From Geminicoccaceae bacterium (GTDB taxonomy: Bacteria > Pseudomonadota > Alphaproteobacteria > Geminicoccales > Geminicoccaceae), in the NCBI GenBank assembly GCA_020445645.1, contig JAGRGG010000019.1, forward strand, positions 1 to 64,000: 64,000 bases of DNA, read 5' to 3'. A program made the position numbers and the translations under genes. This document shows positions 44,818-63,035 of the stretch, one piece after another. The notes beneath the pieces are model-generated. The model saw only the letters and a list, made by a program, of their open reading frames with translations. It did not search any database and was not told the origin of the DNA. Numbering within the stretch: the stretch's first letter is position 1; every line of letters starts with the position of its first letter.

Positions 44818-45007
44818 GTCCTGGTCCCTCTTCCCGGCGTCGCGTCGTGGCCCCGCGCCCTTATAGCAACCCGGGACCGAGCTTGACACCGGCCAATCTT
44901 TCGTCCGACATCGCCCTCAACCCGGCCGGTACGGAACGCGCCAACGAGAACGCCTTCGCTGTCGCGTGGCGGACCCCGCCACCAACGCATCACAGGGAGA
45001 CGACCCA

Positions 45008-46030
45008 ATGAAACGACTTCTCTTGACCGGCGCCTGCGCCGCGCTGCTGGGCCTGGGCGGCCCGTTCACCGCCTCGGCCCAGGACTACAGCTACCGCTTC
45101 CAGTCGTCGGACCCCGCCGGCAACCCGAACTTCGAGTACCAGCAGGGCTGGACCAAGCTCGTCGCCGAGAAGACGGGCGGGAAGGTCCAGATCGAGCTTC
45201 TGCCCGTGGGCTCGGTGGTCGAGTACAACGAGACGCTCGACGCCGTCGCCGCCGGCATCCTGGACGGCCAGATCTGCGACAGCTCGTACTGGGCCGGCAA
45301 GGACCCCGCCTTCGGCCTCATCTCCAACCCCGTCGGCGCGTGGTCGGACCCGGCGCAGATGATCGACTTCGTCGAGAACGGCGGCGGCAAGGAGTTGATG
45401 AACGAGCTGCTCGAATCCTACGGGCTGCACTTTATCGGCGTCTCGACCCCCGGCCTCGAGTCCCTCGTGTCCCGCGTGCCGATGGACGGCGTCGACGACC
45501 TGAAGGGCGTGAAGATGCGCACGCCCGAGGGGCCGATCGCCAACACGTTCGCCGCCGCGGGCGCCGCCCCCGTCAACCTCCCGTCGTCGGAGGTCTACAC
45601 CTCGCTCGACAAGGGCGTCGTCGATGCCGCCGACTACTCGGTGTTCTCGGTCAACCAGCAGCAGGGCCTGAACGACATCGCCCCGAACCCGATCTATCCG
45701 GGCTTCCACTCGCTGCCGCTCGTCGAGGTGTCGCTGAACAAGGCGAAGTGGGACGAGCTGCCCGACGACCTCAAGGCGACGCTGGAGGAGACCGTGAAGG
45801 AGTTCCAGCAGACCCAGCTCGCGGGCAACAAGGCGGCCGACCTGAAGGCCGTCGAGGAAGCCAAGGCATCCGGCAAGATCACCATCCACGACTGGCCCGA
45901 CGAGGAGCGCGCCAAGTTCCGCAAGATCGCCGTGGCGGAGTGGGAGCGCATCGCCAAGACCTCGCCGATGGCGCAGAAGGTCTACGACACCCTCACGGCC
46001 TACCTGAAGAGCAAGAACCTCCTCCAGTAG
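45008..46030 (+). CDS. dctP: TRAP transporter substrate-binding protein DctP
   Basis: 340 residues with a signal peptide (about 1-24, ALLGLGGPFTASAQ). It is the periplasmic binding subunit of a tripartite ATP-independent transporter. The carboxylate-binding region VKMRTPEGPIANTFAAAGAAPVNL with the conserved Arg is present, followed by EVYTSLDKGVVDAADYS. The ATG at 45008 follows AGGGAGACGACC and was preferred over an upstream in-frame start. It probably delivers a sugar acid for the divergent dehydratase and dehydrogenases. Confidence 0.92.
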   Translation: MKRLLLTGACAALLGLGGPFTASAQDYSYRFQSSDPAGNPNFEYQQGWTKLVAEKTGGKVQIELLPVGSVVEYNETLDAVAAGILDGQICDSSYWAGKDPAFGLISNPVGAWSDPAQMIDFVENGGGKELMNELLESYGLHFIGVSTPGLESLVSRVPMDGVDDLKGVKMRTPEGPIANTFAAAGAAPVNLPSSEVYTSLDKGVVDAADYSVFSVNQQQGLNDIAPNPIYPGFHSLPLVEVSLNKAKWDELPDDLKATLEETVKEFQQTQLAGNKAADLKAVEEAKASGKITIHDWPDEERAKFRKIAVAEWERIAKTSPMAQKVYDTLTAYLKSKNLLQ

Positions 46031-46094
46031 AACCGACGGCGGCCGCCTAGCGCGGCCGCCGCTTCACACGGGAGCGGTGAGGGGGAGGCAGACA

Positions 46095-46679
46095 ATGAAC
46101 GAGCACGTGCGCACGCCCGAGGAGATCGACCTCGCGGCGACGAGCGAGGGGACGGGCGCCACGGCGCCGGAGGCCGGCGCCATGGGCCGGATCGTCGACA
46201 AATGCGGCTACGTCTTCGCGCTCGGCATCGTCGTCGCGGCGGCGATCCTCCTGATGGAAGTCTTCCTGCGCTACTTCCTCAACAGCCCGACGATCTGGGC
46301 GCACGAGACGACGGTGTTCCTCTGCGCCGCCGCCTTCGTCTTCGGCGGGCTCTACTGCACCTGCCGCAACAGCCACATCCGCGTCGTGCTGGTCTACGAC
46401 CACCTGCCGCCGAAGGCCCGGCGCGTCGCCGACATCGGCATCTCGCTCGTCTCGGCGGTCGCCGCCGCCTTCTTCGCCTACGCCTCGTACCACATGGTCA
46501 AACGGGCCGTGATCACCCCGGCCGGCACGGTGCGGCTGGAGACGACGGGCAGCGCCTGGAGCCCGCCGACGCCGGCCTTCATCAAGATCTTCATCCTCTT
46601 CATCATGGTACTCCTGGTCGTGCAGTTCCTGATCCTCGCGGTGAACTACGCCCGCGGCGGACGGAACATCGAGCGATGA
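46095..46679 (+). CDS. dctQ: TRAP transporter small permease DctQ
   Basis: 194 residues with four membrane helices (about 35-58, 71-90, 113-135 and 155-185). The motif FLRYFLNSPTIWAHETTVFL is the DctQ core, with the conserved Trp and Glu. A roughly 30-residue charged N-terminal extension precedes the first helix. The ATG follows GGGGGAGGCAGAC. It overlaps dctM by four bases (ATGA). Confidence 0.92.
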   Translation: MNEHVRTPEEIDLAATSEGTGATAPEAGAMGRIVDKCGYVFALGIVVAAAILLMEVFLRYFLNSPTIWAHETTVFLCAAAFVFGGLYCTCRNSHIRVVLVYDHLPPKARRVADIGISLVSAVAAAFFAYASYHMVKRAVITPAGTVRLETTGSAWSPPTPAFIKIFILFIMVLLVVQFLILAVNYARGGRNIER

Positions 46680-48004
46680 GCGGCCTCCTCGACCTCGGCA
46701 TCAACCTCCAGGGCCTCGGCATCGGCTGGGGCACGGGCGTGATGTTCCTGATGCTGGTCGGGCTCCTCCTCACCGGGATGCCGCTCGCCTTCGTGACCCT
46801 GCTCGTCGCCCTGATCTTCGCGCTCGGCTGGTTCGGGCCGATGTCGATCCCGCTCATCACGAGCCGCGTCTTCTCCTTCGTGATGAACTTCGTCTTCGTC
46901 TCGGTGCCGATGTTCGTCCTCATGGCGGCGATCCTCGATCGCTCCGGCATCGCCCGCGACCTGTTCGACGCGATGAAGCTGTTCGCGGGGCGCATCAGGG
47001 GCGGCGTCGCCGTGCAGACGGTGTTCGTCTCGATCATCCTGGCCGCGATGAGCGGCATCATCGGCGGCGAGATCGTGCTGCTCGGGCTCATCGCCTTGCC
47101 GCAGATGATCAGGCTCGGCTACGACCGCAGCCTCGCCATCGGCGTCGTCTGCGCGGGCGGCTCGCTCGGTACGATGATCCCCCCCTCCATCGTCCTCATC
47201 ATCTACGGGCTCACGGCGAACGTCTCGATCGGCGAGCTGTTCACCGCCGCGTTCCTGCCCGGCTTCATGCTGGCGATGTTCTACGTCGGCTACATCCTGT
47301 TCCTTGCCTACTTCACGAAGGGCAACGTGCCGCCGGTCGACCCGGCGCCGATCCCCACGGCGGAGAAGCTGCGCTTGCTCAAGGGGCTGGCGCTGCCCGT
47401 GTTCGTCGTCTTCGTCGTCCTGGGCTCGATCTACGGCGGCATCGCTTCGGTGACGGAGGCGTCCGCGATCGGCGTCGGCGGCGTCGTGCTGTCCACGATC
47501 CTGCGCGGCGAGTTCTCCTACGCCCTTGTCCGCGACGCGGCCCTTCAGACGCTGGCCACGGTCGGCATGATCGTCTGGATCGGCATCGGCGCCACCGCGA
47601 TCGTCGGCGTCTACAACCTGATGGGCGGGGTGAAGTTCGTCTCCGACATGATCACCGGCGTCTCGGCCAACCCGACCGTCATCGTGCTCTTGATGATGGC
47701 GATCCTGTTCGTGCTCGGCGCCTTCCTCGACTGGGTCGGGATCGCGCTCCTGACGATGCCGATCTTCGTGCCGATCATCAAGTCGCTCGGCATGGACCCC
47801 GTCTGGTTCGGCGTGCTCTTCTGCATGAACATGCAGGTGTCGTTCCTCTCGCCCCCCTTCGGCCCCGCCGCCTTCTACCTGAAAAGCGTGGCGCCGCCCG
47901 AGATCTCGCTCGGCGTCATCTTCAGGTCGCTCCTGCCGTTCATCTGCCTGCAGATCCTGGCGGTGGCCCTCCTGGTCGCGTTCCCAGGCATCACCGGCCG
48001 CTGA
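46676..48004 (+). CDS. dctM: TRAP transporter large permease DctM
   Basis: 442 residues and about 12 membrane segments. The DctM core is clear: SVPMFVLMAAILDRSGIARDLFD, GEIVLLGLIALPQMIRLGYDRSLAIGVV, GSLGTMIPPSIVLIIYG and the late SFLSPPFGPAAFYLKSVAPP. It forms the sodium-driven transport channel with DctQ. The stop is followed by a perfect hairpin, the likely transcription end. Confidence 0.95.
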   Translation: MSGLLDLGINLQGLGIGWGTGVMFLMLVGLLLTGMPLAFVTLLVALIFALGWFGPMSIPLITSRVFSFVMNFVFVSVPMFVLMAAILDRSGIARDLFDAMKLFAGRIRGGVAVQTVFVSIILAAMSGIIGGEIVLLGLIALPQMIRLGYDRSLAIGVVCAGGSLGTMIPPSIVLIIYGLTANVSIGELFTAAFLPGFMLAMFYVGYILFLAYFTKGNVPPVDPAPIPTAEKLRLLKGLALPVFVVFVVLGSIYGGIASVTEASAIGVGGVVLSTILRGEFSYALVRDAALQTLATVGMIVWIGIGATAIVGVYNLMGGVKFVSDMITGVSANPTVIVLLMMAILFVLGAFLDWVGIALLTMPIFVPIIKSLGMDPVWFGVLFCMNMQVSFLSPPFGPAAFYLKSVAPPEISLGVIFRSLLPFICLQILAVALLVAFPGITGR

Positions 48005-48138: not shown

Positions 48139-49809
48139 TCAGTCGCCCAGGATCGTCGGCAGGCGCAGGCCCTTCTCGCGGGCGCAGGCGACGGCGTCCT
48201 CGTAGCCCGCGTCGGCGTGGCGCCAGACGCCGGACGCCGGGTCGTTCCACAGGACCCGCGCCAGACGCCGCGCCGCGGCCTCGGTGCCGTCGGCGACGAC
48301 GACCATGCCCGCGTGCTGGGAAAAGCCCATGCCGACGCCGCCGCCGTGGTGGAGGGAGACCCAGGTGGCGCCGGAGGCCGTGTTGACGAGCGCGTTGAGC
48401 AGCGGCCAGTCGGAGACGGCGTCGGAGCCGTCCCGCATCGCCTCGGTCTCGCGGTTGGGCGACGCGACGGAGCCTGAGTCCAGGTGGTCGCGGCCGATGA
48501 CGACGGGGGCCTTGAGTTCGCCCGACGCCACCATCGCGTTGAAGGCGAGGCCGAGGCGGTGGCGGTCGCCCAACCCCACCCAGCAGATGCGGGCGGGCAG
48601 GCCCTGGAAGCTGATGCGTTCGCGCGCCATGTCGAGCCAGTTGTGCAGGTGCGCGTCGTCGGGCATCAGCTCCTTGACCTTGGCGTCCGTCTTATAGATG
48701 TCCTCCGGGTCGCCGGACAGGGCGCACCAGCGGAACGGGCCGATGCCGCGGCAGAACAGGGGGCGGATGTAGGCGGGGACGAAGCCGGGGAAGGCGAAGG
48801 CGTTCTCCAGGCCCTCTTCCTTGGCGACCTGCCGGATGTTGTTGCCGTAGTCGAGGGTGGGCACGCCCCGGTTCCAGAACGCGACCATCGCCTCGACGTG
48901 GACCTTCATGCTGGCGCGCGCGGCCTTCTCCACCGCCTTCGGGTCGCTCTCGCGCTTGGCCCGCCATTCGCCGACGCTCCAGCCCCGCGGCAGGTAGCCG
49001 TTGATCGGGTCGTGGGCGCTGGTCTGGTCGGTGACCATGTCGGGGCGCACGCCGCGCCGGACGAGTTCGGGGTACACGTCGGCGGCGTTGCCGAGGAGCG
49101 CCACCGACTTCGCCTCGCCGGCCTTCGTCCAGCGGTCGATGATCGCCAGCGCCTCGTCGAGGCCCTCGGCGCGCTCGTCGACGTAGCGGGTGCGGAGGCG
49201 AAAGTCGATCCGGTCGGAATCGCACTCGACGGCGAGGCAGCAGGCCCCCGCCATCACGGCGGCGAGCGGCTGGGCGCCGCCCATGCCGCCCAGGCCCGCC
49301 GTGAGGATCCAGCGGCCCTTGAGGTCGCCGCCGTAGTGCTGGCGCCCGGCCTCGACGAAGGTCTCGTAGGTGCCCTGCACGATGCCTTGGGAGCCGATGT
49401 AGATCCAGGAGCCGGCCGTCATCTGGCCGTACATCATCAGGCCCTTGCGGTCCAACTCGTGGAAGTGGTCCCAGGTGGCCCAGTGCGGCACCAGGTTCGA
49501 GTTGGCGATCAGGACGCGCGGCGCGTCGCTGTGGGTCCGCACCACGGCGACCGGGCGGCCGGACTGCACCACCAGCGTCTCGTCATCCTCCAGGCCCTTC
49601 AGGGCGGCGACGATGCGGTCGAAGTCGCCCCAGCTGCGCGCGGCCCGGCCGATGCCGCCGTAGACGACGAGCTCGTGCGGGCTCTCGGCCACGTCGGGGT
49701 GCAGGTTGTTCATGAGCATCCGCAAGGGGGCCTCGGTGAGCCAGGACTTGGCGTTCAGCTCGGTGCCGGTGGGCGGGTAAACGTCGCGGGCGTTCTTGCG
49801 GTCGAGCAT
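48139..49809 (-). CDS. hutU: Urocanate hydratase
   Basis: 556 residues. It is a NAD-dependent enzyme that hydrates urocanate to 4-imidazolone-5-propionate, the second step of histidine breakdown. The segment [15 protein letters not shown] holds the NAD site and [27 protein letters not shown] the catalytic-region Cys. The length is as in other bacterial HutU (555-560). The ATG at 49809 follows AAGGAACC. It is the last gene of the operon, separated from its hut partners by the acyl-CoA dehydrogenase and CoA-transferase genes. Confidence 0.97.
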
Positions 49810-49819
49810 CGGGGTTCCT

Positions 49820-50965
49820 TCAGGCGAAGAGGTGGGCGGCGACGATGTTGCGCTGGATCTCGGAGGAGCCCTCGTAGATGCGCATGATGCGGGCGTCGCG
49901 GACGAGGCGTTCGAGGGCGAAATCACGGGTGTAGCCGTAGCCGCCGTGGATCTGGAGCGCCTTGTCGGTCACGCGCCCGGCCATCTCGGAGGCGGCGAGC
50001 TTGGCGAGCGCCGCCGCCTCGCCGAAGCGCCCGCCGAGGTCGCGCCGGCGGGCGGCCTCGAGCGCCAGCAGGCGGGCGGCCTCGAAATCGAGCGCCATGT
50101 CGGCCAGCATCCAGCGGATGCCCTGCCGCGCCGCCAGCGGCTCGCCGCCGATCGTCCGGTCCCTGGCGTAGGCGACCGCGAGGCGGAGCGCCGCGCCCGC
50201 GAGGCCGAGGCACATGGCGGCGACCTCGACGCGGCCGTTGTCGAGCGTGCGCATCGCCGTCTTGAACCCCTGCCCCGCGACGCCGCCCAGGAGCGCGTCC
50301 GGGGGCAGGTCGCAGTCGAGGTCGAGCGTGACGACGTGCCCGCCGCGCAGGCCCATCGTCCGCTCCGGGCGACCGGCGACTAGCCCAGGCGTACCCTTCT
50401 CGACCAGGAAGGCGCCGATCCCGCGGTGGCCGGCGTCGGGATCGGTGACGGCGAAGACGACGAGCAGATCGGCCTCGCCGCCGTTCGAGATGAAGCACTT
50501 GGCACCCTTGAGACGCCACCCGCGCCCGGCGCGCCGGGCGCGGGTGCGCATGTCGGCGGGATCCGAGCCGGCGCCCGGCTCGGTCAGCGCGAAGGCGCCC
50601 AGGACCTCGCCCGTCGCGGCCTTCGGCAGCCAGTGGCCGCGCTGGTCGTCGGTGCCGCCGATCAGGATCGCGTCGGTGGCGAGGTAGTGCGCCGTCAGCG
50701 CCGAGACGGTCGAGCCGCAGCCGGACGCGACCAGTTCGACCGCGCGCAGGAGGCCCGGCGCCGAGATGCCGGGGCCGCCCCAGCGCTCGGGCAGGTTGGC
50801 GCCCATGAGGCCGAGTTCGGCCAGCCTGTCGAGCTGTGCCCTGGGAAACGTCGCGGTTTCGTCCGTGGCGGCGGCGGCGGGCGCCAGCTCCTCGGCGACG
50901 AAGCGCTCCAGGAGATCGGCGAAGGCGCGCTCCTCCGGGGATAGCATGTGGTACGGGTCGTTCAT
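49820..50965 (-). CDS. Acyl-CoA dehydrogenase family protein
   Basis: 381 residues of the FAD-dependent ACAD family. The signature [21 protein letters not shown] is present, as are the C-terminal Gly-rich region [37 protein letters not shown] and the helix bundle. The catalytic base is probably the Glu of RIYEGSSE. The start overlaps the stop of the CoA-transferase gene (ATGA), and hutU begins ten bases after the stop, so it is expressed with the hut genes. It would oxidise an alpha,beta-saturated acyl-CoA; substrate not predictable. Confidence 0.9.
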
Positions 50966-52122
50966 GTCACAGCCTTCCCACTGATCGCCCCCAGCACCGC
51001 GTCGGCGTCGGCGCCGAGGCGCGGCGCCGCGCGGTCGCTCTGCCACTTCTCGCCGTCGAAGCGCACCGGCTGGCCGACGACCGGCACGGGCCCGAGCGTG
51101 GGGTGCACGACCTCGCCGACGAGGCCGCGCGCCTGGGTCTGCGGGCTGTGAACGGCCTCGGCGACGCTTCGGATCGGGGCGCAGGGGATGTGCGCGGCGC
51201 TCAGGGCCGCGACGAGGTCCCCGGTGGCGCGCGTCCCGGTCCAGGCCTCGATCATCCGACGCAGGGCGGGCTCGTTCAGGGTGCGCGCGGCGTCGGTGGC
51301 AAAGCGCGCGTCCGCCTCGATGCCGGCGGCGCCGATGAGGGCGGCGAAAGCGGCGAACTGGCGGTCGTTCAGCACCGCGACCGCGACCAGCCCGTCCGCT
51401 GCGCGGTAGCAGCCGAAAGGGGTGGAGAGCGGGTGGCGGTTGCCGACGCGGCGGGGCTCCTGGCCCGCGTAGAGGTACTGCGCGTGCGCCGTCGGCAGGA
51501 GCGCGAAGAGGGCGTCGTGCATCGCCACGTCGATCACCGCACCCTCCCCCGTCCGCGCCCGGCGCAGCAACGCCGCGAGGATCGCCCAGCTGGCGAACAG
51601 CCCGGCCACGAGGTCGCCGAAGGACTCGCCCACCTTGAGGGGCTGGCCGCCTTCCTCGCCCGTCACCGCCATCAGGCCGGACAGGGCCTGGACGACGAGG
51701 TCGTAGGCGGGCAGGCCGGTCCAGGGTCCCGTCTGGCCGAAGCCCGAGATCGAGGCGTAGACCGTGTCGGGGCGCCGCGAGCGCAGGTCGTCCGGCCCGA
51801 GGCCGAGCTTCGCCGCGACGCCGGGGCGGAAGTTCTCGACGGCCACGTCGCAGGTGGCGGCGACGTCCTGGGCGAGCTTCCGGCCGGCCTCCCGCTTCAG
51901 GTCGACGGCGATCGACTGCTTGCCCCGGTTCGTGAGCAGGAACAGGGCGCTCTCGCCGTCCCTGAACGGGCCGACGTGGCGGTAGTCGTCGCCCCCCGGC
52001 GGTTCGAGCTTGATCACCTCGGCGCCGAGGTCGGCCAGGAGCGCCGTGCAGTAGGGGCCGGCGAGGACGCGGGTCATGTCGAAGACCCGGATCCCTTCCA
52101 ACGGCCTGTTGCCCTCAGCCAC
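50962..52122 (-). CDS. CaiB/BaiF-family CoA-transferase (class III)
   Basis: 386 residues. The family start [46 protein letters not shown] includes the region around the active-site Asp. Downstream segments such as [19 protein letters not shown] are typical. These enzymes transfer CoA between carboxylates (for example carnitine/crotonobetaine) without ATP. The gene starts at a GTG overlapping hutG by eight bases, and the dehydrogenase follows with an overlap. The pair may make and oxidise a CoA ester of an imidazole acid (inference). Confidence 0.9.
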
Positions 52123-52915
52123 GCCGCATTCCCTCCACGGTTTCGGCCAATGCGTTCAGCACCCTGCCCAGCACCGGCCGCAGCCGGTCGGCCCGGTCGG
52201 CGCGCCAGCCCCAGGGCGGGGCCTCGTCCATGTAGGCCCGTTGCGCGACCTCCATCTGGAGGGCGTGGACCCTAGCCTCGGGGCGGCCGTAGTGCCGGGT
52301 GGTCCAGCCGCCCTTGAAGCGTCCGTTCAGCACGCCGTCGAACCCTTCAGCGGTGGCGCAGACCTTCGCGGCCGCGGCCTCGATTTCCGGCGCGCAGGCG
52401 GCGCCGTCGTTGGTGCCGACGTTGAGGACCGGCAGGGTACCCTCGAACAGGAACGGGATCACGGAGCGGATCGAGTGGCAGTCGTAGAGGAGCGCCACCC
52501 CGTGCCGTGCCCGGACGCGCGCGACCTGTTCCGCCAGCGCCGCGTGGTAGGGCGCGTGGTACGCCTCGCGCCGCGCGTCGATCTCGTCCGCCGATGGCTC
52601 CCGACCCGGCTCCCAGATCAGGCGGCCGTCGAAGTCGGTGACGGGGCAGAGGCCGGTCGTGTTCTGACCCGGGTAGAGCGAGGCGCCGGCCGGGTCGCGG
52701 TTGGCGTCGACCGCGTAGCGGTGGACGTTGGAGCGCACCACCGTGGCGCCAGGCAGGAGCCCCTCGTAGAGCCGGTCGATGTGCCAGTCGGTGTCGGCCA
52801 ATCCGCGGCCGTTGGCGTTCAGCCGCGCGGCAAGGTCGTCCGGCAGCCACGTGCCGCCGTGGGGCTGGCCGAGGATGACGGGGCCGTCGCCCTCGATGAC
52901 CTCGAACGGGTTCAT
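52115..52915 (-). CDS. hutG: N-formylglutamate deformylase
   Basis: 266 residues of the N-formylglutamate amidohydrolase family. It hydrolyses N-formylglutamate to glutamate and formate in the five-step histidine route. The family blocks [39 protein letters not shown] and [18 protein letters not shown] are present, with His, Asp and Glu as zinc-site candidates. It is translationally coupled to hutH (ATGA). Confidence 0.95.
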
Positions 52916-54450
52916 GCCCCGACCTCCGGCAACGCCACGTCGGCGGCGGCGGTGATTTCGGTGCCGGCGACCAGCCTGGATGCCGCCTCGATGTCGGGGG
53001 CGAGGATGCGGTCCTTGCCCAGCGTCGCCACGTCCCGGCGCAGCCGGGCGAGGACCCGCCCCAAGGGCGGGCTCGTTTGAAGCGGCGCCCGGAACTCGAC
53101 GCCCTGCGCGGCGCAGAGCAGTTCGACGCCCAGGATCCGGTCCAGGTTCTCGACCATCCGCCCGAGCCGCCGGGCGCCGTGGGCGGCCATCGAGACATGG
53201 TCCTCCTGGTTGGCGGAGGTGGGGGTGGAGTCGGTCACACACGGCGTCGCCAGGTGCTTGTTCTCGCTCATCAGGGCGGCGGTCGTCACCTCGGCGATCA
53301 TGAAGCCGGAGTTCAGGCCGGGGTCGGGGGTGAGGAACGGCGGCAGGTCGAAGCTGAGGCCGGGGTCGACCATGAGCGCCACCCGCCGCTGGGCGATGGC
53401 GCCGAGTTCGGCCGTGGCAAGCGCGATCATGTCGGCGGCGAAGCCCACGGGCTCGGCGTGGAAGTTGCCGCCGGAGACGATCATGTCGGCCCCTGTCAGG
53501 ACCAGCGGGTTGTCGGTCGCGGCGTTTGCCTCGATCACGAGCGTGGATGCCGCCTGACGCAGCACGTCCATCGCGGCGCCCGCCACCTGCGGCTGGCAGC
53601 GGATGCAGTAGGGGTCCTGGACGCGGGTGTCGCCGGTCCTGTGGCTCTCGCGGATGGCGCTGCCGTCGAGGAGTGCCCGCATTGCTTCCGCCGCCTCGAT
53701 CTGGCCCCGGTGGCCGCGCAGGGCGTGGATCTCCGGCTGCAGGGGCGCGGTCGAGCCCATGATGGCGTCGGTCGAGAGCGCCGAGACGACGAGCGAGGAC
53801 CGCGCCGCGCGCCACGCCTCGAACAGTCCTGCGAGCGCGAAGGCGGTCGAGAACTGGGTGCCGTTGATGAAGGCGAGCCCCTCCTTGGGGCCGAGCGGGA
53901 TCGGGGACAGCCCGGCCCTGGCCAGCGCCTCGGCGCCCGGCAGCACCTCGCCCCGGTAGTCCGCCTCGCCCTCGCCGATGACGACGGCGGTCATGTGGGC
54001 GAGCGGGGCGAGGTCGCCCGAAGCGCCGACCGAGCCCTGCGCCGGGACGACCGGGGTGACGCCCTGCGCCAGCATCGCCTGCAGCAGCTCGATCAGCGCC
54101 CAGCGCACGCCGGACGCCCCCCGCCCAAGCGACAGGAGCTTCAGCGCCATCATCAGCCGGGCGTGGCGGCGCGGGATCGCCCCGCCGACGCCGCAGCAGT
54201 GGCTGAGGATGAGGTTGCGCTGGAGGGTCGCCGTGTCCTTCCGGGCGATCTTGACGCTGGCGAGCTTGCCGAACCCTGTGTTGACCCCGTAGACCGGCGC
54301 GTCGCCGGCGGCGGCGGCGGCGATCCGGCGCGCCGCCTCCTCGACGGCGGGGCGGCAGGCGGGATCGAGCGCCACCGGGGTCTCGTTCCAGTAGATGTCC
54401 GCCAGTTGGTCCAGCGTGACCGAGCCGGGGGCGAGCGTGAGGGCGCTCAT
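52912..54450 (-). CDS. hutH: Histidine ammonia-lyase
   Basis: 512 residues. It deaminates L-histidine to trans-urocanate. The MIO cofactor precursor is Ala143-Ser144-Gly145 in [13 protein letters not shown]. The active-site tyrosine region [15 protein letters not shown] is present, and later [20 protein letters not shown]. The length matches the family (509-515). It is coupled to hutI and hutG by 4-base overlaps. This is the committed step of the pathway. Confidence 0.98.
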
Positions 54451-55673
54451 GGCGAGCCTCCGTAAATGCGGGCGTGGAGCGGGTTGAAGCCGATGCGGTA
54501 GGCGAGTTCGGCCGGGTGGTCGACGTCCCAGACGGCGAGGTCGGCGCGCCTCCCCGGGGCGACGACGCCGCATTCGGCGAGCCCGAGCGCGCGGGCGGCC
54601 TCGCGGGTGATCCCGGCCAGCGCCTCCTCCGGGGTCAGGCGGAAGAGCGTGCAGGCCATGTTCATGGCGAGCAGGAGCGAGGTCAGCGGCGAGGAGCCGG
54701 GGTTGGCGTCGGTCGCCACCGCCATTCCTACCCCGTGCCGGCGCAGAAGGTCGATGGGCGGGGCCCGCGTCTCGCGGAGCGTGTAGTACGCGCCGGGCAG
54801 GATCACGGCGACCGTACCGGCCCCGGCCATCGCCCGCACGCCGTCCTCGTCGAGGTATTCGAGGTGGTCGGCCGAAAGGGCGCCGTAGGCGGCGGCGAGC
54901 CTGGCGCCGCCGAGGTTCGAGAGCTGCTCGGCGTGGAGCTTCACCGGGAGGCCGAGTTCCCGCGCCGCGTCGAACACGCGCTCGATCTGGGCAGGGGAGA
55001 AGGCGATCCCTTCGCAGAAGCCGTCGACCGCGTCGACCAGCCCCTCGGCGTGGGCGGCGTGCAGGGTCGGGATGCAGACCTCGTCGATATAGGCGTCGGC
55101 GCGGCCCTTGAACTCGGGCGGCACGGCGTGGGCGCCGAGATAGGTGGTCCTCACCCGCACCGGGCGCACCCCGGCGATGCGGCGGGCGGCGCGGAGCATC
55201 CTGAGTTCGGTCTCCGTGTCGAGGCCGTAGCCCGACTTCACCTCGATGGTGGCGACCCCCTCGGCGATCAGCGCGTCGGCGCGGCGAAGCGCGTCCGCCA
55301 GGAGCGCGTCCTCGGAGGCGGCGCGGGTGGCGGCGACGGTCGAGACGATCCCGCCTCCGGCGCGGGCGATCTCCTCGTAGGTGGCGCCTTCGAGGCGCAT
55401 CTCGAACTCGCGCGCCCGGTTGCCGCCGGCGACGAGGTGCGTGTGGCAGTCGATCGGCGCCGGCGTGACCAGCCGTCCGCCCATGTCCCGCGCTTCCAGG
55501 CGCCCGAATTCGCCCGGCAGGTCGGCGCTTTGTCCGACCCAGGCGACGGCGCCGTTCCGGACTGCCAGGGCAGCGTCCCCGATCAGGCCGTAGGGCGCTT
55601 CGCCCGGGGCGAGCGTCGCCACCCGCGCGTTGTTCAAAAGGAAGTCCCCCTCGCTCACGGCGCCCCCGCACAT
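54447..55673 (-). CDS. hutI: Imidazolonepropionase
   Basis: 408 residues of the amidohydrolase superfamily. It hydrolyses 4-imidazolone-5-propionate to N-formimidoyl-L-glutamate. Metal-binding His residues are in [13 protein letters not shown], with further ones in [12 protein letters not shown] and [14 protein letters not shown], and the Asp in [11 protein letters not shown]. First gene of the minus-strand hut operon. The ATG at 55673 is adopted; a GTG five codons downstream has a better-spaced G-rich site, so the start may be there. Confidence 0.94.
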
Positions 55674-55709: not shown

Positions 55710-55727
55710 TTTATGTCTATACATAAA
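55710..55727. promoter_or_regulatory. HutC-like operator between hutI and hutF
   Basis: TTTATGTCTATACATAAA: perfect 7-bp arms with a four-base centre, containing TGT-N4-ACA, the pattern bound by HutC (GntR family). It is in the 63-base space between divergent hutI and hutF and ends nine bases before the hutF start. No hutC gene is present in the window, so the regulator must be elsewhere. The urocanate-responsive repressor HutC is the likely ligand (inference). Confidence 0.7.
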
Positions 55728-55736
55728 GGACACGCC

Positions 55737-57110
55737 ATGAGCACGATCTACGCGAACCGCGCCCGGCTCCCGGACGGCTGGGTGCGGGGCCTGCGCCTGA
55801 CGGTCGAGGGCGGCACGATCGCGGCGCTGGCGACGGACGCCGTGCCCGAAGCGGGCGACGTTCGGGTCGACACGCTGCTGCCGGCCCTCGGCAACCTGCA
55901 CAGCCACGCCTTCCAGCGGGCGATGGCCGGGATGACCGAGGTGCGCGCCGAGGGGCGGGACAGCTTCTGGACGTGGCGGGACCTCATGTACCGCTTCCTC
56001 GACCGGCTCACGCCCGAGCAGACGGAGGCCATCGCGGCGCTGGCGTTCATGGAGATGCAGGAGGCGGGCTTCGCCGCCGTGGGCGAGTTCCACTACGTCC
56101 ACCACCGGCCGGGCGGCGCGCCCTACGCCGACCCGGCCGAGCTGTCGAAGCGGATCTTCGCCGCCGCCGCCGCGACCGGGATCGGCCTCACCCATTTGCC
56201 GGTGCTCTACACCTACGGCGCGGCGGGGCGGGCGCCGCTCGCGGGCGGGCAGCTGCGCTTCGGCAACGACGTGACCGGGTTCCAGAGTCTCGTGGCCGCC
56301 GTGCGTGACGGGATCGGGACGCTGCCCCCGGACGCCCGCGTCGGCATCGCCCCCCACTCGCTGCGCGCCACGGCGCCCGCCGACCTGAAGGAGGTTCTCG
56401 CGGCCCACGCCGCCGGGGGCGGCGGGCCGGTCCACGTCCACGCGGCCGAGCAGCCGAAGGAGGTGGCGGACGTCGAGGCGTGGCTGGGGTCCCGGCCCGT
56501 GCAATGGCTGCTCGACGAGGCCGGGGCGGGCGCGGGCTGGTGCCTGATCCACGCGACGCACATGACGGCGGCGGAAACCGTCGCCCTGGCGCGGTCGGGG
56601 GCGGTCGCCGGGCTCTGCCCGATCACCGAGGCCAACCTGGGCGACGGGCCGTTCAACGGGCCGGGCTACCTCGCCGCCGGCGGGGCGTTCGGCGTCGGGT
56701 CGGACTCGAACGTGCGCGTCTCGCTCGTCGAGGAACTGCGGACGCTGGAATATTCGCAGCGCCTGCGCGACCTCGCGCGCAACGTGCTCCGCGTCGGCGA
56801 AGGGTCGGTGGGGGCGGCGCTCTACCTCGGCGCCGCGCAGGGCGGGGCGCGGGCGCTCGGGCGGGATTCCGGTGCCATCGCGCAAGGGCGTCTCGCCGAC
56901 CTCGTGGCGATCGACGGTACCGCCCCCGCGCTTTGCGCCCTCGACGGCGACCGGCTCCTCGACGGGCTGGTCTTCGCTTCGGGCGACGGGGCGGTCACGG
57001 ACCTGTGGTCGGCGGGCCGCCACGCCGTGCAAGGCGGGCGCCACGCGGCCCGCAACCGGATCGTCAGGGACTACCGCGCGGCGATGGCCTCGCTGCTGGC
57101 GTCGCTGTGA
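55737..57110 (+). CDS. hutF: Formimidoylglutamate deiminase
   Basis: 457 residues of the amidohydrolase superfamily. It converts N-formimidoyl-L-glutamate to N-formyl-L-glutamate and ammonia, the fourth step of the five-step pathway. The metal site [12 protein letters not shown] (H-x-H), [19 protein letters not shown] and FGVGSDSN segments are all HutF-like. The ATG at 55737 follows AAAGGA, just downstream of the HutC-like operator. Its end overlaps the converging hutD end by 40 bases. Confidence 0.94.
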
Positions 57111-57658
57111 AGGGGGGCGAGGTCGAGCCATAGCGCCCGCGCGTCCGGCGCCAGCCGGACCCGCGCCGGCCCGTCCCCGCAAAGCGCCACGGAGCCGGGC
57201 GGGACGGGGGCGCCGCCCGTGGCCGTCACCGTGCCCCCGAGCACGTAGAGGCCGGCGGTTCCCCCTTCCGCCGGATCGAGGTCGGTCTCGGCCCTGCCCG
57301 CCAGTCGACTTACGTTCGCGGCGAAACATACGGGATCGAAGATGAGGTTCAGGTTGCGCACGGACCCGACCGATAGCCGCCCGACGACCTCCAGGGCGCC
57401 CGAGAAGGCCAGCGGCGTTTCGGGAAGGGCTTGCAGCGGCCCCGCCCGCGTCTCCAGGACCATGCCGGCGCCCGCGACCACCGTGAGGATGCGTTCCATC
57501 CCGGGAAACGGCGAGAACGGGCCGTCCCGGTCCACGTCGGCGAGGCTCAGCCGCCAGACCGTTGCCTCCCCACGGTCCAAACGAGCGATCTCGCGGGTGA
57601 CGCCGCCGCCGTTCTTCCAGGCGACGGGCGCGAGGCCGCCGGGCCGGATCAGGCGCAA
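57071..57658 (-). CDS. hutD: HutD family protein
   Basis: 195 residues of the cupin-like HutD family, often found in hut loci. The core [36 protein letters not shown] and [11 protein letters not shown] blocks are present. It has no proven enzyme activity; a role in tuning histidine use is proposed for Pseudomonas. The TTG at 57658 was chosen because no ATG or GTG occurs nearby and it overlaps the hisC stop by ten bases. Last gene of the second minus-strand operon. Confidence 0.85.
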
Positions 57659-58770
57659 TCGTGCCGGTCCGAGGCGGCGAGTGCGACGATCAGGCGGTCG
57701 TTCTCGCTGGGCGTGCCGATGGTGGCCCGCATGTAAGTGGTGAAGCCGGGCTCGCGCCACGCCTTGACGATGATCCCTTCCTTGAGGAGCGCCGCGACGA
57801 AGTCGGCGCTGTCGCCGCCGCAGTCGAAGAACAGGAAGTTCGTCTGCGACGGCGCCACGCGAAAGCCCAGGCCTTCCAGCCCGTCCCGGACGCGCGCGCG
57901 CTCGTCCTTGAGGCGCTTGACCGAAGCCCGCATCCACGCCTTGTCGTCGAGCGCCGCGACGGCTGCGACCTGCGCCGCCGCGTTCACGTTGAACGGGGTC
58001 TTCGCCGCCGCGACGACGCGGGCGGTCTCCGCGTCCGAGCAGACGGCGTAGCCCGCGCGCAGGCCCGCGAGGCCGTAGGCCTTGGAGAAGGTGCGCAGGA
58101 CGGCGTGGGGGATGCCGGAGGCGCGCAGCACCTCGATACCATCGGGGCCGCCCTCGTCGGCGTACTCGAAATAGGCCTCGTCGAGGACGAAGAGCGTCCG
58201 GGGCGGGGTCGCGGCGATCAGGCGGCGAAGGCCGTCCCGGTCGAGCGCGGGGCCGACCGGGTTCCAGGGCGACGAGAGGAAGACGACGGCGGGCACTTTT
58301 GCCAGCGCCGCTTCGAGGGCGTCGAGGTCGAAGCCGAAGGCGGGGGTCATCGGCACCTTGACGACGCGGGCACCGGCGGCGAGCGGCTCGATCTCGTGCA
58401 GGCCGAAGCTGGGCACGACGGTGAGCGCCGTGCGCCCCGGCGTGAGCGTGGCGCGCGCGATCGCGGCGATCATCTCCTCGGAACCGTTGCCGCAGACGAT
58501 GGTCTCGATCGGCGCGCCCGTGTCCCGCGCGATGGCTTCCCGCAGCAGGGTGCAGGCGGGGTCGGCGTAGCGCGCGGGCTCAAAAGCGGCGGAGGCGAGC
58601 GCTTCCAGGACCTTGGGCGAGCAGCCGTCAGGGTTCTCGTTGCTGGCGAGGCGCGCGATGTCCTGCCTGCCGCTCAGCCGGCGCGCGACCTCGACGTTCA
58701 TGCCGGCGTTGTAGGGCGGAAGCGCCGCGACGCTGGGGTTGAAGTCGGGCCGGTCGCGCAAAGGGGTCAC
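57649..58770 (-). CDS. hisC: HisC-type class I/II aminotransferase
   Basis: 373 residues of the PLP-dependent histidinol-phosphate aminotransferase family. The family blocks [41 protein letters not shown] and [15 protein letters not shown] are present. The Schiff-base Lys is in [18 protein letters not shown]. It normally makes histidinol phosphate, but here it lies in a catabolic operon with a Rieske system and hutD. It could instead transaminate histidine or an analogue. GTG start. The symbol reflects sequence family, not proven role. Confidence 0.85.
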
Positions 58771-58786: not shown

Positions 58787-59923
58787 TCAGAGGTCGAGCA
58801 CGACCGGCCCCTTGGGCCGCGAGCAGCAGATCAGCACCTCGCCCTCGGCAGGCGGATCGAGGGGTTCCTCGAAGTATTCGACTTCGCCGGACAGGAGGCG
58901 CGTCTTGCAGGTCGAGCAGATCCCGGCGCGGCAGCTGAACTCCGGCGTCAGGCCTTGGCTTTCGGCGAAATCGAGCAGCGACGGCGCCTTGTCCGTCCAG
59001 GAGGCCTGGATGCCGGAGCGGCGGAATTCCACCGCCGCCGCGTCGGTTATTCCATCGGTCGAGACGGAAGGTGCTTCCGGCACTGCCGCCGCGGGCAGGA
59101 TGACGGGCGCCGCCGCGTCCTCCTCCAGCAGGCTTGCAGGACCGAAGAACTCGTACTTGATCCGCTCGCGCGCGATTCCGAGGCCGCGCAGGATGCCGAA
59201 GACGCCCTTCATGAAGGGCGTCGGGCCGCAGAGGTAGACGTCGTAGTCGTCGAGCGGCAGCAGGCTTTGCAGAAGCTCGCGGGTGACGAGGCCGGTGCCG
59301 CGGTGACGCTTGCGGGCGAGGTCGCGCTCGGTGGGCTGCCGATAGCAGAAATGGGCGTGGATGCCGGGGCGGGAGCGGGCGACCGCCTCGACCTCGTCGC
59401 CGAGCGCGTGCAGGTCGCCGTTGTCGCAGGCGTGGATGAAGTGCACCGTGCGGTCGGTCTCGGTCGCCAGCGCGTGCAGCATCGAGACGAGCGGCGTGAG
59501 TCCGACGCCGCCGGCGAGCAGCACCACGGGGCGCGGGCTGGTGCGGTCGAGGGTAAAGGCGCCGCGCGGGCCTTCCGCCAGGATCTCGTCGCCGATGGCG
59601 ACCCTGTCGTGGAAGTGGCCCGACCCCAGCCCGGCGCCGCCCGCGCGCTCGGGCGCCGGTTCGCGTTTCACCGTGATCCGGTAACGACCGGGGCGGAGGG
59701 GGGACGACGAGACGCTGTAGTTGCGAACGACGCCCCCCTCCGTCCCGTCGCCCGGCAGGCGGAAGACCAGGAACTGGCCGGGCTCGAAGTCGCGCCAGCC
59801 GCCCACGTCCACGGGTTCCAGGTGGAAGGAGGTGATGGTGGCGCTCTCCGCCACCCGGTCGACCACCTTGAGCCGGCGGAACCCGGCCGCGATCGCGCCC
59901 ACGGTCGCGGGATCATCGTTCAT
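58787..59923 (-). CDS. Oxygenase reductase, FAD and 2Fe-2S ferredoxin domains (VanB-like)
   Basis: 378 residues. The FAD domain has RNYSVSSSPL, and the NAD domain has LLAGGVGLTPLVSMLHAL followed by YLCGPTPFMKGV. The C-terminal plant-type 2Fe-2S domain has CRAGICSTCKTRLLSG and a fourth Cys in VLICCSRPKG. It passes electrons from NAD(P)H to the Rieske oxygenase encoded just upstream, with which it shares an ATGA overlap. Interdomain order is FNR-type then ferredoxin, as in class IB reductases. Confidence 0.92.
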   Translation of the reverse strand: MNDDPATVGAIAAGFRRLKVVDRVAESATITSFHLEPVDVGGWRDFEPGQFLVFRLPGDGTEGGVVRNYSVSSSPLRPGRYRITVKREPAPERAGGAGLGSGHFHDRVAIGDEILAEGPRGAFTLDRTSPRPVVLLAGGVGLTPLVSMLHALATETDRTVHFIHACDNGDLHALGDEVEAVARSRPGIHAHFCYRQPTERDLARKRHRGTGLVTRELLQSLLPLDDYDVYLCGPTPFMKGVFGILRGLGIARERIKYEFFGPASLLEEDAAAPVILPAAAVPEAPSVSTDGITDAAAVEFRRSGIQASWTDKAPSLLDFAESQGLTPEFSCRAGICSTCKTRLLSGEVEYFEEPLDPPAEGEVLICCSRPKGPVVLDL

Positions 59924-60960
59924 TCGGCGGCGATCGCGGGCGCCTCGGCCTCGGCCTCGATGAGCTTCGCAAGCCCGCGGCGGAAGCGCAGCGGCCCGAC
60001 GTCGATCTTGAGGTCGAGGTTGGGCGTCCTCTTGTTCGCCATGCCCTGGTGGACGGCCTCGAGTACGGCGCGGTCCTCCTCGAAGGCGCCGCGCACCGAG
60101 GACGCGAAGCGCCTCGACACCTCGGAGTCGTCGGGGGCGAAGTTGCGCATCTGGAACCAATAATATTTGGTATGGTTCTCGTCGACCGGGGTCATGAAGT
60201 TGTAGCTGTCCATCAAGAACACGTCGTCGTGCAAGGGCCTGTCCTCGCCCCCGGTGTTGGCGGGTACGAAGATCGCCTTGATGATGGCGTTTGAGGGGTA
60301 GTGAACCTCGTAGTGCTGCTTGCGGTCGGCGTTGCCATCGAACTTCAAGAAAGACTTGTAGAAGGGTGCCGGCTCGGAATCGACCATCCACCGCCAGACG
60401 GTGACGCCGTTCGGATGCACCGTGGTCTGGAGCGGCGTCTCCTCGCAGGCGGCGCTGGCGAACGAGGTCTGATGCACCCACGCGACGTGGGAGGGGTCGA
60501 GCAGGTTGTCGGTCATGTAGAGGTAGTTGCAGGCGATGGTCATCGACTCGCCGCGGTTGACCCCCCACGCCGGGTCGTCGAAGTGCTCGACCGCGAAGAT
60601 CAGGTTGGGGTCAGCCTTCTCCGCCTCGCCCATCCAGATCCACAGGAGGCCGTAGCGCTCTTCGAGCGGGTAGGCGCGCACGCGGGCGACGTGCGGGACG
60701 CGCTCGGCGCCGGGGACGCGGGTGCAGGCGCCGGCGCAGTTGAAGGTGAGGCCGTGGTAGCCGCACTCCACGTCGTCGCCCTTGATCCGCCCCATCGAGA
60801 GCGGCAGCTTGCGGTGCGGGCAGGCATCCTCCAATGCTGCGGCCTTGCCGGAGGTGGTGCGGTAGAGGACGACGTTCTCGCCCAGCACCCGGACCGGGAC
60901 CAAACCGTCCGTGACCTCGTGGTCCCACGCGGCGACGTACCAGGCGTTGCGCAGAAACAT
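59920..60960 (-). CDS. Rieske non-heme iron oxygenase (VanA-like)
   Basis: 346 residues. The Rieske cluster is Cys47-x-His49 and Cys66-x2-His69 (CPHRKL and CGYHGLTF). The mononuclear iron ligands are in DNLLDPSHVAWVH (two His), with an acidic ligand later. It belongs to the vanillate demethylase-type group, which oxidatively demethylates or hydroxylates aromatic and heteroaromatic substrates. Position next to the hut genes suggests an imidazole substrate (inference). The ATG follows AAAGGAG. Confidence 0.9.
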   Translation of the reverse strand: MFLRNAWYVAAWDHEVTDGLVPVRVLGENVVLYRTTSGKAAALEDACPHRKLPLSMGRIKGDDVECGYHGLTFNCAGACTRVPGAERVPHVARVRAYPLEERYGLLWIWMGEAEKADPNLIFAVEHFDDPAWGVNRGESMTIACNYLYMTDNLLDPSHVAWVHQTSFASAACEETPLQTTVHPNGVTVWRWMVDSEPAPFYKSFLKFDGNADRKQHYEVHYPSNAIIKAIFVPANTGGEDRPLHDDVFLMDSYNFMTPVDENHTKYYWFQMRNFAPDDSEVSRRFASSVRGAFEEDRAVLEAVHQGMANKRTPNLDLKIDVGPLRFRRGLAKLIEAEAEAPAIAAE

Positions 60961-61053
60961 CGTCCTTGCTCCTTTCGACCGGGGCGGGGGTGCTTTGTCC
61001 GGAAGATATCGGGGCTTCCGGGGGCTGCGCAAGCGGGCTAGAACTGCGATCTG

Positions 61054-61092: not shown

Positions 61093-62031
61093 ATGCCCCT
61101 CCCCCGCCTGCGCGCGCTGCAAGCCTTCGAGGCCGTCGGCAGGCTGGGCAGCATCACGGGTGCCGCGGGCGAACTGGGCGTCTCGCCGAGCGCCGTCACC
61201 CAGCAGGTTCGGGCGCTGGAGACGCTCTTGGGCACCCCGCTCCTGGAACGGCGCGGCAAGGGGCTCGAACTGAACGCCCAGGGCCGGGTCTACCACGCCG
61301 GGATCAGCCTGGGCTTCCGCCAGTTGGAAGCCGCGCAGGACGCGCTCGTTCGGGCTCAGGGCGGCGCGCTCCGGGTCAGTTGTCTGCCCTCGGTCGCCGC
61401 GAAATGGCTCTCCCCCCTGCTCTTCGACTGGCAGGCGCGGCACGCGGACGCGGTGGTCCATCTGGTCGGCACCGAGGTCGAGCCCCGGCTCGGCGAGGAA
61501 GGGGTGGACTTCCGGGTCTCCTACGGCAGGGCTGCGGGAGATTACCGGCACCGCACCGAACTCTTCACCGACTGGGTGGCGCCGGCCTGCGCGCCGGCCT
61601 TCCTCGAACGGCATCCGGTGGAGACGCCCGAAGCGATCCTGCGCCGGCCGCTGCTCCGGATCGACTGGAGCATCGGCGGCGAGAGGCAGCGCGACTGGGA
61701 CGACTGGGCGGTGGCGGTCGGGGCGTCCCCGCCGACCGGCGGCGCCCTCAGCTTCTCCCTGTCGAGCGCCGCGATCGACGCCGCCGCCGCCGGGCGGGGC
61801 TTCGTGCTGGCGCCGCTGGCGATGATGGCGGGCGAAATCGCGGCGGGGCGCCTCGTCGTGCCGCACGACGTCCGCCTCCCTTTGCCGGAGGCATACTTCG
61901 TCGCCTGGGGCCAAGCCGCGCTCGCCAAGCCCTTCGCCGCCGCATTCCGCGACTGGCTGATCGCCGCCGCCCGCCGCCAGGGCCGCCTGTCGCGCCCGAA
62001 GGGCAGGGACGGAGACCGCAAAGGCGGTTGA
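61093..62031 (+). CDS. LysR family transcriptional regulator
   Basis: 312 residues. The N-terminal winged helix is LPRLRALQAFEAVGRLGSITGAAGELGVSPSAVTQQVRALE, followed by a LysR substrate-binding domain (about 90-300). The start and helix pattern resemble the GcvA-like subgroup. It is divergent from the Rieske oxygenase operon and is followed by the ABC transporter gene set, so it probably regulates either or both. Effector unknown. Confidence 0.92.
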   Translation: MPLPRLRALQAFEAVGRLGSITGAAGELGVSPSAVTQQVRALETLLGTPLLERRGKGLELNAQGRVYHAGISLGFRQLEAAQDALVRAQGGALRVSCLPSVAAKWLSPLLFDWQARHADAVVHLVGTEVEPRLGEEGVDFRVSYGRAAGDYRHRTELFTDWVAPACAPAFLERHPVETPEAILRRPLLRIDWSIGGERQRDWDDWAVAVGASPPTGGALSFSLSSAAIDAAAAGRGFVLAPLAMMAGEIAAGRLVVPHDVRLPLPEAYFVAWGQAALAKPFAAAFRDWLIAAARRQGRLSRPKGRDGDRKGG

Positions 62032-62135: not shown

Positions 62136-62966
62136 ATGAAGAGACGCTCCGTCGTGCAGGCCCTCGTCGGCCTCGGCCTCGTGCTCGGCCTGCCGCTCGC
62201 CGCGCACGCCCAGGACGCGCTGGAGCGCGTCACGTCGGCGGGCGTCCTGAAGGTGGGCACGGAGACCGCCTTCGCGCCGTTCGACTTCATCGACGCCACC
62301 GGCGAGCACGCCGGGCTGAACGTCGACCTCTTCGGCGAGATCGGCAAGGAGATGGGCGTCGACATCGCGTGGGTGGAGCTGCCCTGGGACGGCGTGCTGC
62401 CGGCGCTCGAAGCCGGGCAGTTCGACATGGTCGGCGGGCCCGCCACCATCACCAAGGCCCGCGCGGAGCGCTACCGCTTCATGCCGCCCATCGCCGAGGC
62501 GACCGTGGCGCTGCTCAAGCGCGCGGACGACGACAGCATCCAAAAGCCCGAGGACATCGCCGGCAAGCTCGTCGGCGGCGGCAAATCCTCGGCGCAGCTC
62601 GCCCAGTTGAAGGCGTTCGGCGAGTCCCTGCCCGGCGGGGTCGAGGTGCGCGAGTACGTCGGCAACAACGAGGCCTACGCCGATCTGGCGGCGGGGCGCA
62701 TCGCGGCGGTCGGCAACTCGCTGCCGAACATCGCCTACGTCGCGAGCCAGCAGCCAGACGTGTTCGCGGTCGTCCAGCCGCCCTTCGGGACGAAGAGCTA
62801 CTTCGGCTACATCGGCACGAAGAAGCCGGAGGACCAGAAGCTGCTCGACGCCGTCGACGCCGCGATCCTGAAGATCAAGGCGGACGGGCGCTTGGCCGAG
62901 CTGCAGAAGAAGTGGTTCGGCACGGCGTTCGACACCCCCGATCACGTCACCGACCCGGCGCTCTGA
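62136..62966 (+). CDS. ABC transporter substrate-binding protein, amino acid type
   Basis: 276 residues with a signal peptide (about 1-25, ending AAHAQ). It is a family 3 solute-binding protein (SBP_bac_3). GVLKVGTETAFAPFDFIDATGEHAG is the family opening, and EAGQFDMVGGPATITKARAERY a mid-protein motif. The periplasmic receptor for the two permeases that follow. Its neighbours suggest histidine or a related compound as ligand. The ATG follows AAGGGGAAGGTAA. Confidence 0.9.
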   Translation: MKRRSVVQALVGLGLVLGLPLAAHAQDALERVTSAGVLKVGTETAFAPFDFIDATGEHAGLNVDLFGEIGKEMGVDIAWVELPWDGVLPALEAGQFDMVGGPATITKARAERYRFMPPIAEATVALLKRADDDSIQKPEDIAGKLVGGGKSSAQLAQLKAFGESLPGGVEVREYVGNNEAYADLAAGRIAAVGNSLPNIAYVASQQPDVFAVVQPPFGTKSYFGYIGTKKPEDQKLLDAVDAAILKIKADGRLAELQKKWFGTAFDTPDHVTDPAL

Positions 62967-63035
62967 GCCCCGGCCTCCGGATCGAGGACGGGCCGCGCGA
63001 CCCCCGCGCGGCCCGCTTGCCGAAAGGCCCGCCGC

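Follow-up and report, generated by a model that had tools for sequence, protein, structure and literature searches.

A CoA-transferase and acyl-CoA dehydrogenase pair in a hut operon as a proposed imidazolepropionate-to-urocanate branch of histidine utilisation

Why would a histidine utilisation (hut) operon hold genes for a CoA-transferase and an acyl-CoA dehydrogenase (ACAD)? The question is raised by a 64,000-nucleotide stretch of a Geminicoccaceae bacterium genome (GenBank assembly GCA_020445645.1, contig JAGRGG010000019.1, positions 1 to 64,000; hereafter the window), in which these two genes, hereafter the pair, lie inside such an operon. Imidazolepropionate is an acid that a CoA-transferase could charge and an ACAD could desaturate, yielding urocanate, and hence we propose it as the substrate. 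We consider it very likely that the pair forms an imidazolepropionate-to-urocanate branch of histidine utilisation, for which we infer substrate, CoA donor, direction and regulation from sequence. What the sequences show directly is which genes are present, how the operon is laid out, that the linkage is conserved, that operator-like sites exist and which genes are orthologs.

The pair within the hut operon

The genes hutI, hutH, hutG, CoA-transferase, ACAD and hutU form a single tight unit on the minus strand, from 55673 down to 48139, with junctions from hutI to hutU of -4, -4, -8, -4 and +10 bp. The original prediction, made from the letters of the window, had given the span 48139-55673, which is correct and runs from hutU to hutI. 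It had also placed the pair between hutG and hutU, overlapping hutG, as borne out by the coordinates (52122-49820, with an 8-bp overlap between hutG and the CoA-transferase); a 10-bp gap separates ACAD from hutU. The hutH, hutU, hutI, hutF and hutG genes each score over their curated NCBIfam cut-off.

48139..49809, minus strand: hutU, urocanate hydratase (TIGR01228, 957.7 bits against a cut-off of 375)
49820..50965, minus strand: ACAD, proposed imidazolepropionyl-CoA dehydrogenase (Pfam ACAD N-terminal, middle and C-terminal domains, Glu365, AF2 fold)
50962..52122, minus strand: family III CoA-transferase, proposed to charge imidazolepropionate (PF02515, 436 bits, Asp170)
52115..52915, minus strand: hutG, N-formylglutamate deformylase (TIGR02017, over cut-off)
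52912..54450, minus strand: hutH, histidine ammonia-lyase (TIGR01225, over cut-off)
54447..55673, minus strand: hutI, imidazolonepropionase (TIGR01224, over cut-off)
55737..57110, plus strand: hutF, formimidoylglutamate deiminase, divergent (TIGR02022, over cut-off)

The window shares hutH, hutU, hutI, hutF, hutG, hutD, a neighbouring HutC gene and an operator-like site with the canonical five-step pathway that uses HutF and HutG (Pseudomonas type), but its operon has two extra CoA-dependent genes, which we propose provide a second entry to urocanate. In this route, the family III CoA-transferase would charge imidazolepropionate with CoA and the ACAD would oxidise imidazolepropionyl-CoA at C2-C3 to urocanoyl-CoA, with the electrons going via electron transfer flavoprotein (ETF) and ETF-quinone oxidoreductase (ETF-QO) to quinone. 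The CoA-transferase would then free urocanate, most economically by passing its CoA to the next imidazolepropionate, so that urocanoyl-CoA, as the presumed donor, would make the cycle self-sustaining. HutU, HutI, HutF and HutG would carry the carbon on to glutamate, and urocanate-responsive HutC would control the operon. An ETF-QO domain match is present in the window's genome, so the ACAD can probably hand electrons to quinone.

Both proteins look like intact members of their families. The ACAD has the N-terminal, middle and C-terminal domains (PF02771, PF02770 and PF00441, all over their Pfam cut-offs), and its AF2 model (pLDDT 94.4; best PDB match 4n5f, TM 0.95) predicts a standard ACAD fold. 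Its Glu365, in an IYEG motif, is invariant across 60 aligned rows and aligns with the IYEG of the solved ACADs 5ol2 and 4m9a; we take a glutamate at this SCAD/MCAD position to be catalytic. Nine residues are specific to the family and present in all 37 pair members (N57, S88, D98, G103, P136, R308, D334, R359 and R362); S88 falls at what we take to be the pocket position of MCAD Thr96, from which we draw no claim about the pocket. The CoA-transferase matches CoA_transf_3 (PF02515) at 436 bits, and its Asp170, presumably the active-site residue of family III CoA-transferases, is invariant in 9 rows and aligns with the LADL of YfdE. One full-length paralog (44% identity) lies elsewhere in the window's genome.

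Neither protein passes any NCBIfam cut-off: the best score is 363.6 against 640 for the ACAD, and 325.2 against 750 for the CoA-transferase, on the succinate-glutarate CoA-transferase model. Three known functions were tried and rejected as far under their cut-offs: glutarate breakdown (glutaryl-CoA dehydrogenase 202.9 against 470, besides the transferase score just given), carnitine metabolism (CaiA PRK03354 147.6 against 540; CaiB PRK03525 132.1 against 413) and acryloyl-CoA reductase for the ACAD. CaiB/CaiA, other CoA-transferase and ACAD couples, and the aryl-acrylyl-CoA reductase CarC belong to the same two protein families as the pair. CaiB/CaiA-type couples also share the proposed chemistry, in which a family III transferase charges the acid and the ACAD works at C2-C3. 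The window pair differs in that it falls under the CaiA and CaiB cut-offs, is proposed to be oxidative and is hut-linked. UrdA, a urocanate reductase, involves the same two metabolites as the proposed route in the opposite direction; it is a flavin reductase of another family and uses no CoA ester.

Linkage to hut genes in other genomes

We scanned 84,980 species genomes for the ACAD and used the 80 loci obtained (there are at least 80), of which 23 have 52-71% identity (L044-L066) and 57 have 48% or less; counts for these loci hold among the matches listed. The CoA-transferase lies upstream of the ACAD in all 23 loci at 52% identity or more. A hutU, hutH or hutI gene is found in 11 of these 23 pair loci, against none of the other 57 for hutU, hutH, hutI or hutG (Fisher p 1.3e-7), with a control that is mostly Bacillota, not taxon-matched and made up of stretches of varying length; for stretches of at least 18 kb the contrast is 10/17 against 0/36. 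Because of the Bacillota bias, a within-genome control was added, comprising the best 150 ACAD matches from the 25 pair-bearing genomes with urocanase (two further genomes, G417 and G421, were left out). Urocanase lies within 20 kb of 12/25 pair ACADs and of 1/125 other ACADs of the same genomes (p 4e-10, with rows that are not independent).

The linkage recurs in alpha-, beta- and gammaproteobacteria and in Brevibacterium, and thus in two phyla, with differing gene orders; the different arrangements around the pair favour function over common descent of one operon. The window's six-gene order is found in five other Rhodobacterales loci (Roseovarius, Paracoccus sp. DMF-8, Pseudodonghicola, and plasmids of Paracoccus alcaliphilus and P. 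aminophilus), which argues against chance. In an ACAD tree of 60 sequences (37 pair-linked and 23 of the 57 others), the pair-linked ACADs form one clade (support 100/100) whose deepest split has hut-linked members on either side; the hut-linked label requires 7 changes on the tree. The window ACAD groups with the hut-operon ACADs of Roseovarius and Paracoccus and with a Sinorhizobium ACAD (99/95).

In two Providencia genomes (L057 and L059), hutU is followed by CoA-transferase, ACAD, NCS1 permease, EtfB, EtfA and EtfQO, together with a HutC-like gene (Pfam on the L059 genes); each genome has two urocanases, and the pair ACAD is its sole ACAD at E<=1e-40. Judged by its genes, this row would give an enteric bacterium a complete oxidation unit of its own. 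All seven linked HutU proteins checked are urocanate hydratases by curated cut-off and hutU leads the Providencia operon, so the product of the pair should suit HutU. The actinobacterium Brevibacterium sp. 239c (L065) has CoA-transferase, ACAD and NCS1 permease adjoining hutU, hutI and hutH, and in B. oceani urocanase lies about 14 kb from the pair. An Alcaligenaceae bacterium (L056) carries an ABC transporter, a GlcD-type FAD oxidase, CoA-transferase, ACAD, hutU and hutH, adjoined by hutI and hutD. A betaproteobacterial metagenome-assembled genome (MAG; L062) has the pair with HutC, an ABC transporter, hutH, an FAD oxidase and an aminotransferase, and in genome G072 (L129) a large hut cluster with a Rieske gene surrounds the pair. 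Among the 23 pair loci, tblastn finds an NCS1-type permease in 10, EtfB in 5 and a divergent LysR gene of one family in 10; three NCS1 permeases and one Etf set were checked by Pfam.

A tblastn search of plasmids with the ACAD gave 14 records at 55-70% identity, followed by a sharp drop to 46% and lower, and 12 of the 14 were compared. The CoA-transferase is directly upstream of the ACAD in 12/12 and hut enzyme genes are present in 4/12, with the window's exact order in P. alcaliphilus and P. aminophilus (by annotation). A Thioclava plasmid has the window's gene order with hutU matching in two pieces, and a Pseudorhodobacter plasmid has hut genes with no hutG seen at the locus. The Thioclava nitratireducens hutU (L039 from about 15175, near the record start) shows stops in a single-frame reading and, given also the two tblastn pieces, looks interrupted. 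In two Sinorhizobium plasmids (L040 and L041) the pair comes with a HutC-like gene and an ABC transporter, and the 29 kb examined around it contain no hut enzyme gene.

At the genome level, an ACAD at E<=1e-100 occurs in 5/385 genomes of an even class sample, the window's genome included. All five have urocanase (Fisher p 0.001), and the four besides the window's have the CoA-transferase beside the ACAD. Urocanase is present in 25/27 pair-bearing genomes against 98/385 of the class sample (family cut-off). In Comamonas, 19/53 genomes have an ACAD ortholog, and 12/12 loci examined (of the 19) combine the CoA-transferase with hutH and one or more HutC-like genes within the same 20 kb.

Operator-like sites and neighbouring genes

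A passage in PMC12977541 gives the binding site of Pseudomonas HutC as TGTA-N2-TACA, and one in PMC8871633 states that HutC binds without urocanate. The window has no exact copy of this consensus and three sites with one mismatch, one of which lies between hutI and hutF and is the window's only TGTNTANACA:

55714..55723, no strand assigned: HutC-type operator candidate TGTCTATACA, hutI/hutF intergenic, one mismatch from TGTA-N2-TACA

This decamer, or its complement, also stands before the CoA-transferase of the stand-alone Mesorhizobium pair (L037:10594), in the hutF/hutI region of Roseovarius (L044:5240) and in five further loci of the 39 searched. For the exact consensus, 30 upstream regions and 15 complete loci were searched; it occurs in 5/15 loci, once per locus, and in 4/30 upstream regions (2 Pseudomonas, 2 Providencia). 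It is close before the CoA-transferase of stand-alone Pseudomonas pairs (L051:8770, L054:8745) and about 330 bp before hutU in Providencia (L057:6679, L059:6755). The Paracoccus and Sinorhizobium promoters have no HutC consensus within one mismatch. By eye, a related GTNTAGACAT repeat is present in both. A HutC-type GntR/UTRA gene lies at contig 65168-65908, 1.2 kb past the window end and downstream of the ABC transporter that starts at 62136; its UTRA domain is at contig 65474-65878, and the protein is 62% identical to the regulator beside the Mesorhizobium pair. HutC probably controls the window operon. A 1965 title, cited in PMC12188710, calls imidazolepropionate a 'nonmetabolizable inducer' of the hut enzymes of Aerobacter aerogenes; as a title, it fits HutC-type control that senses imidazolepropionate.

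The genes on either side of the operon are as follows.

44966..48004, plus strand: TRAP transporter (DctP, DctQ, DctM), convergent with hutU, membership uncertain (Pfam)
57071..57652, minus strand: hutD (PF05962; start codon uncertain)
57649..58770, minus strand: HisC-like aminotransferase, possibly histidine/imidazolepyruvate aminotransferase (Aminotran_1_2; TIGR01141 hisC 282.8 against 276.55)
58787..59923, minus strand: VanB-type reductase, FAD/NAD/2Fe-2S (Pfam domains)
59920..60963, minus strand: VanA-type Rieske oxygenase, possibly N-demethylase of methylated histidine (Rieske and VanA_C)
61093..62031, plus strand: LysR regulator (51% to the Mesorhizobium LysR located between ACAD and Rieske genes)
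62136..63677, plus strand: amino-acid-type ABC transporter, binding protein and first permease (tblastn match to the transporter beside the Paracoccus aminophilus operon)

Past the window end the ABC transporter stretch continues with a second permease, an ATPase and then the HutC gene. In two other pair loci, Roseovarius (L044) and Pseudorhodobacter (L038), hutU is likewise followed by TRAP genes, which are only 26-38% similar.

Three of these neighbours recur beside the pair in Gemmobacter and Mesorhizobium: the aminotransferase (73% and 69% identical), the reductase (54-58%) and the Rieske oxygenase (77-79%). In Gemmobacter fulvus (L033) and Mesorhizobium AR02 (L037) the trio stands beside the pair together with a GlcD-type FAD oxidase, and Rieske genes lie near hutH in G072 (L129) and in a Comamonas (L156). 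These neighbours could make up a methylhistidine demethylase and an imidazolelactate route. No methylhistidine Rieske demethylase was found among the matches listed in the literature searched. G072 also has a second Rieske oxygenase (L129 6025-7143) between hutH and the pair, quaternary-amine-demethylase-like by eye, which may point to histidine betaine use. As a wider picture, possible though on balance doubtful, a horizontally spread, self-priming CoA cycle (urocanoyl-CoA to the next imidazolepropionate) would be the core of a HutC/LysR imidazole-salvage regulon, in which the Rieske oxygenase demethylates methylhistidines while the HisC-like aminotransferase and GlcD-type FAD oxidase feed imidazolelactate into histidine.

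Competing readings and significance

The Rieske neighbours also raise another reading, in which the pair acts on a substituted (for example ring N-methylated) imidazolepropionate to give a substituted urocanate, with the plain compound minor. Speaking for it are the VanA-type Rieske oxygenase and reductase close to the pair in the window and in Gemmobacter and Mesorhizobium, and the Rieske genes close to hutH in G072 and G456. Against it, the examined stretch of most pair loci lacks a matching Rieske gene and the seven linked HutU proteins are ordinary urocanate hydratases by cut-off, so we regard it as unlikely. Alternatively, the pair could be a general short-chain or glutarate-type couple that is in the operon by accident: the solved structures nearest to it are short-chain ACADs and YfdE/SUGCT-like transferases, and a succinate-glutarate CoA-transferase is the best NCBIfam match of the transferase. 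The shortfalls against the succinate-glutarate CoA-transferase and glutaryl-CoA dehydrogenase cut-offs, the hut linkage that recurs in varied gene orders and the HutC consensus at some pairs make this decidedly unlikely.

Related ACADs can be reductases, with the caffeyl-CoA reductase CarC among the solved relatives, and the pair might thus run in reverse, from urocanate to imidazolepropionate as an electron sink. In Providencia, the presence of ETF-QO in the operon suggests that electrons flow toward quinone, HutU in the same operon would compete, and NCS1-type permeases in 10/23 pair loci fit uptake; we hold this reversal to be very improbable. Ergothioneine or thiourocanate breakdown would fit the presence of a urocanase family member and the fact that thiourocanate hydratase models do match HutU. 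This reading is hardly credible and was dropped, since these matches fall under their cut-offs: the window HutU scores 690.5 on thiourocanate hydratase (cut-off 930) and 697.7 on S-methylthiourocanate hydratase (cut-off 880), six other pair-linked HutU proteins score 643-720 on the thiourocanate-type models, and all seven exceed the hutU cut-off.

Besides the make-up of the 57-locus control, several observations weigh against the imidazolepropionate branch. Among 59 other genomes sampled as relatives, 30 from the window's family and 29 from its class, none has an ACAD ortholog; the best match there has 45% identity. The Zavarzinia MAG G417 has the pair and neither urocanase nor HutH, and P. 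lundensis G421 has the pair and no urocanase in its assembly; its hutH lies at base 274 of a contig, so that hutU is probably in an assembly gap. No hut enzyme gene is present in the stretch examined for 12 of the 23 genome-scan pair loci, 3 of which carry a HutC-like gene. Directly before the CoA-transferase, L040, L041, L060, L061, L062, L065, L066 and L129 show no HutC site within one mismatch, and in the Comamonas locus L066 the exact site (7562) falls between the transporter and LysR genes, away from the pair. Absence from the hut loci of relatives had been set as the refuting test, and the outcome is mixed: the 59 relatives have no ortholog, and the pair recurs in more distant hut loci. 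Given the relatives, the locus looks acquired or often lost, which neither proves nor disproves the function.

Conversion of imidazolepropionate through its CoA ester to urocanate, as originally predicted, is nevertheless supported as the simplest reading of the pair, of the Providencia operon with hutU, ETF and ETF-QO, of the HutC consensus at some stand-alone pairs and of hut linkage in two phyla, with the enzyme activity inferred. The accompanying claim that no such pathway had been described may be right only in part. A 1973 study by Coote and Hassall (Biochem J) reportedly found that Pseudomonas testosteroni uses imidazolyl-L-lactate and imidazolylpropionate via histidine and urocanate, with no genes assigned, which we take as a lead and not as a check. 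The conversion to urocanate would be the one proposed here, Comamonas genomes carry the pair beside hutH, and the betaproteobacterial MAG, with its FAD oxidase and aminotransferase next to hutH and the pair, fits that scheme. Among the matches listed in the open-licence literature, no paper ties a CoA-transferase or ACAD to imidazolepropionate and no gene for its breakdown appears. Hence what is new may be the genes, with their spread and regulation, rather than the chemistry.

Literature passages describe imidazole propionate as a microbial histidine product that is studied in type 2 diabetes, cardiovascular disease and heart failure. Here, an ACAD and a CoA-transferase outside every NCBIfam cut-off are given a proposed substrate. 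If the proposal is true, imidazole propionate breakdown gains its first genes that could be found, and the pair may close a reported 1973 biochemical observation that seemingly had no genes attached. A defined gene pair would make degradation testable, let metagenomes be searched for degraders and give candidate enzymes for measuring or removing imidazole propionate.

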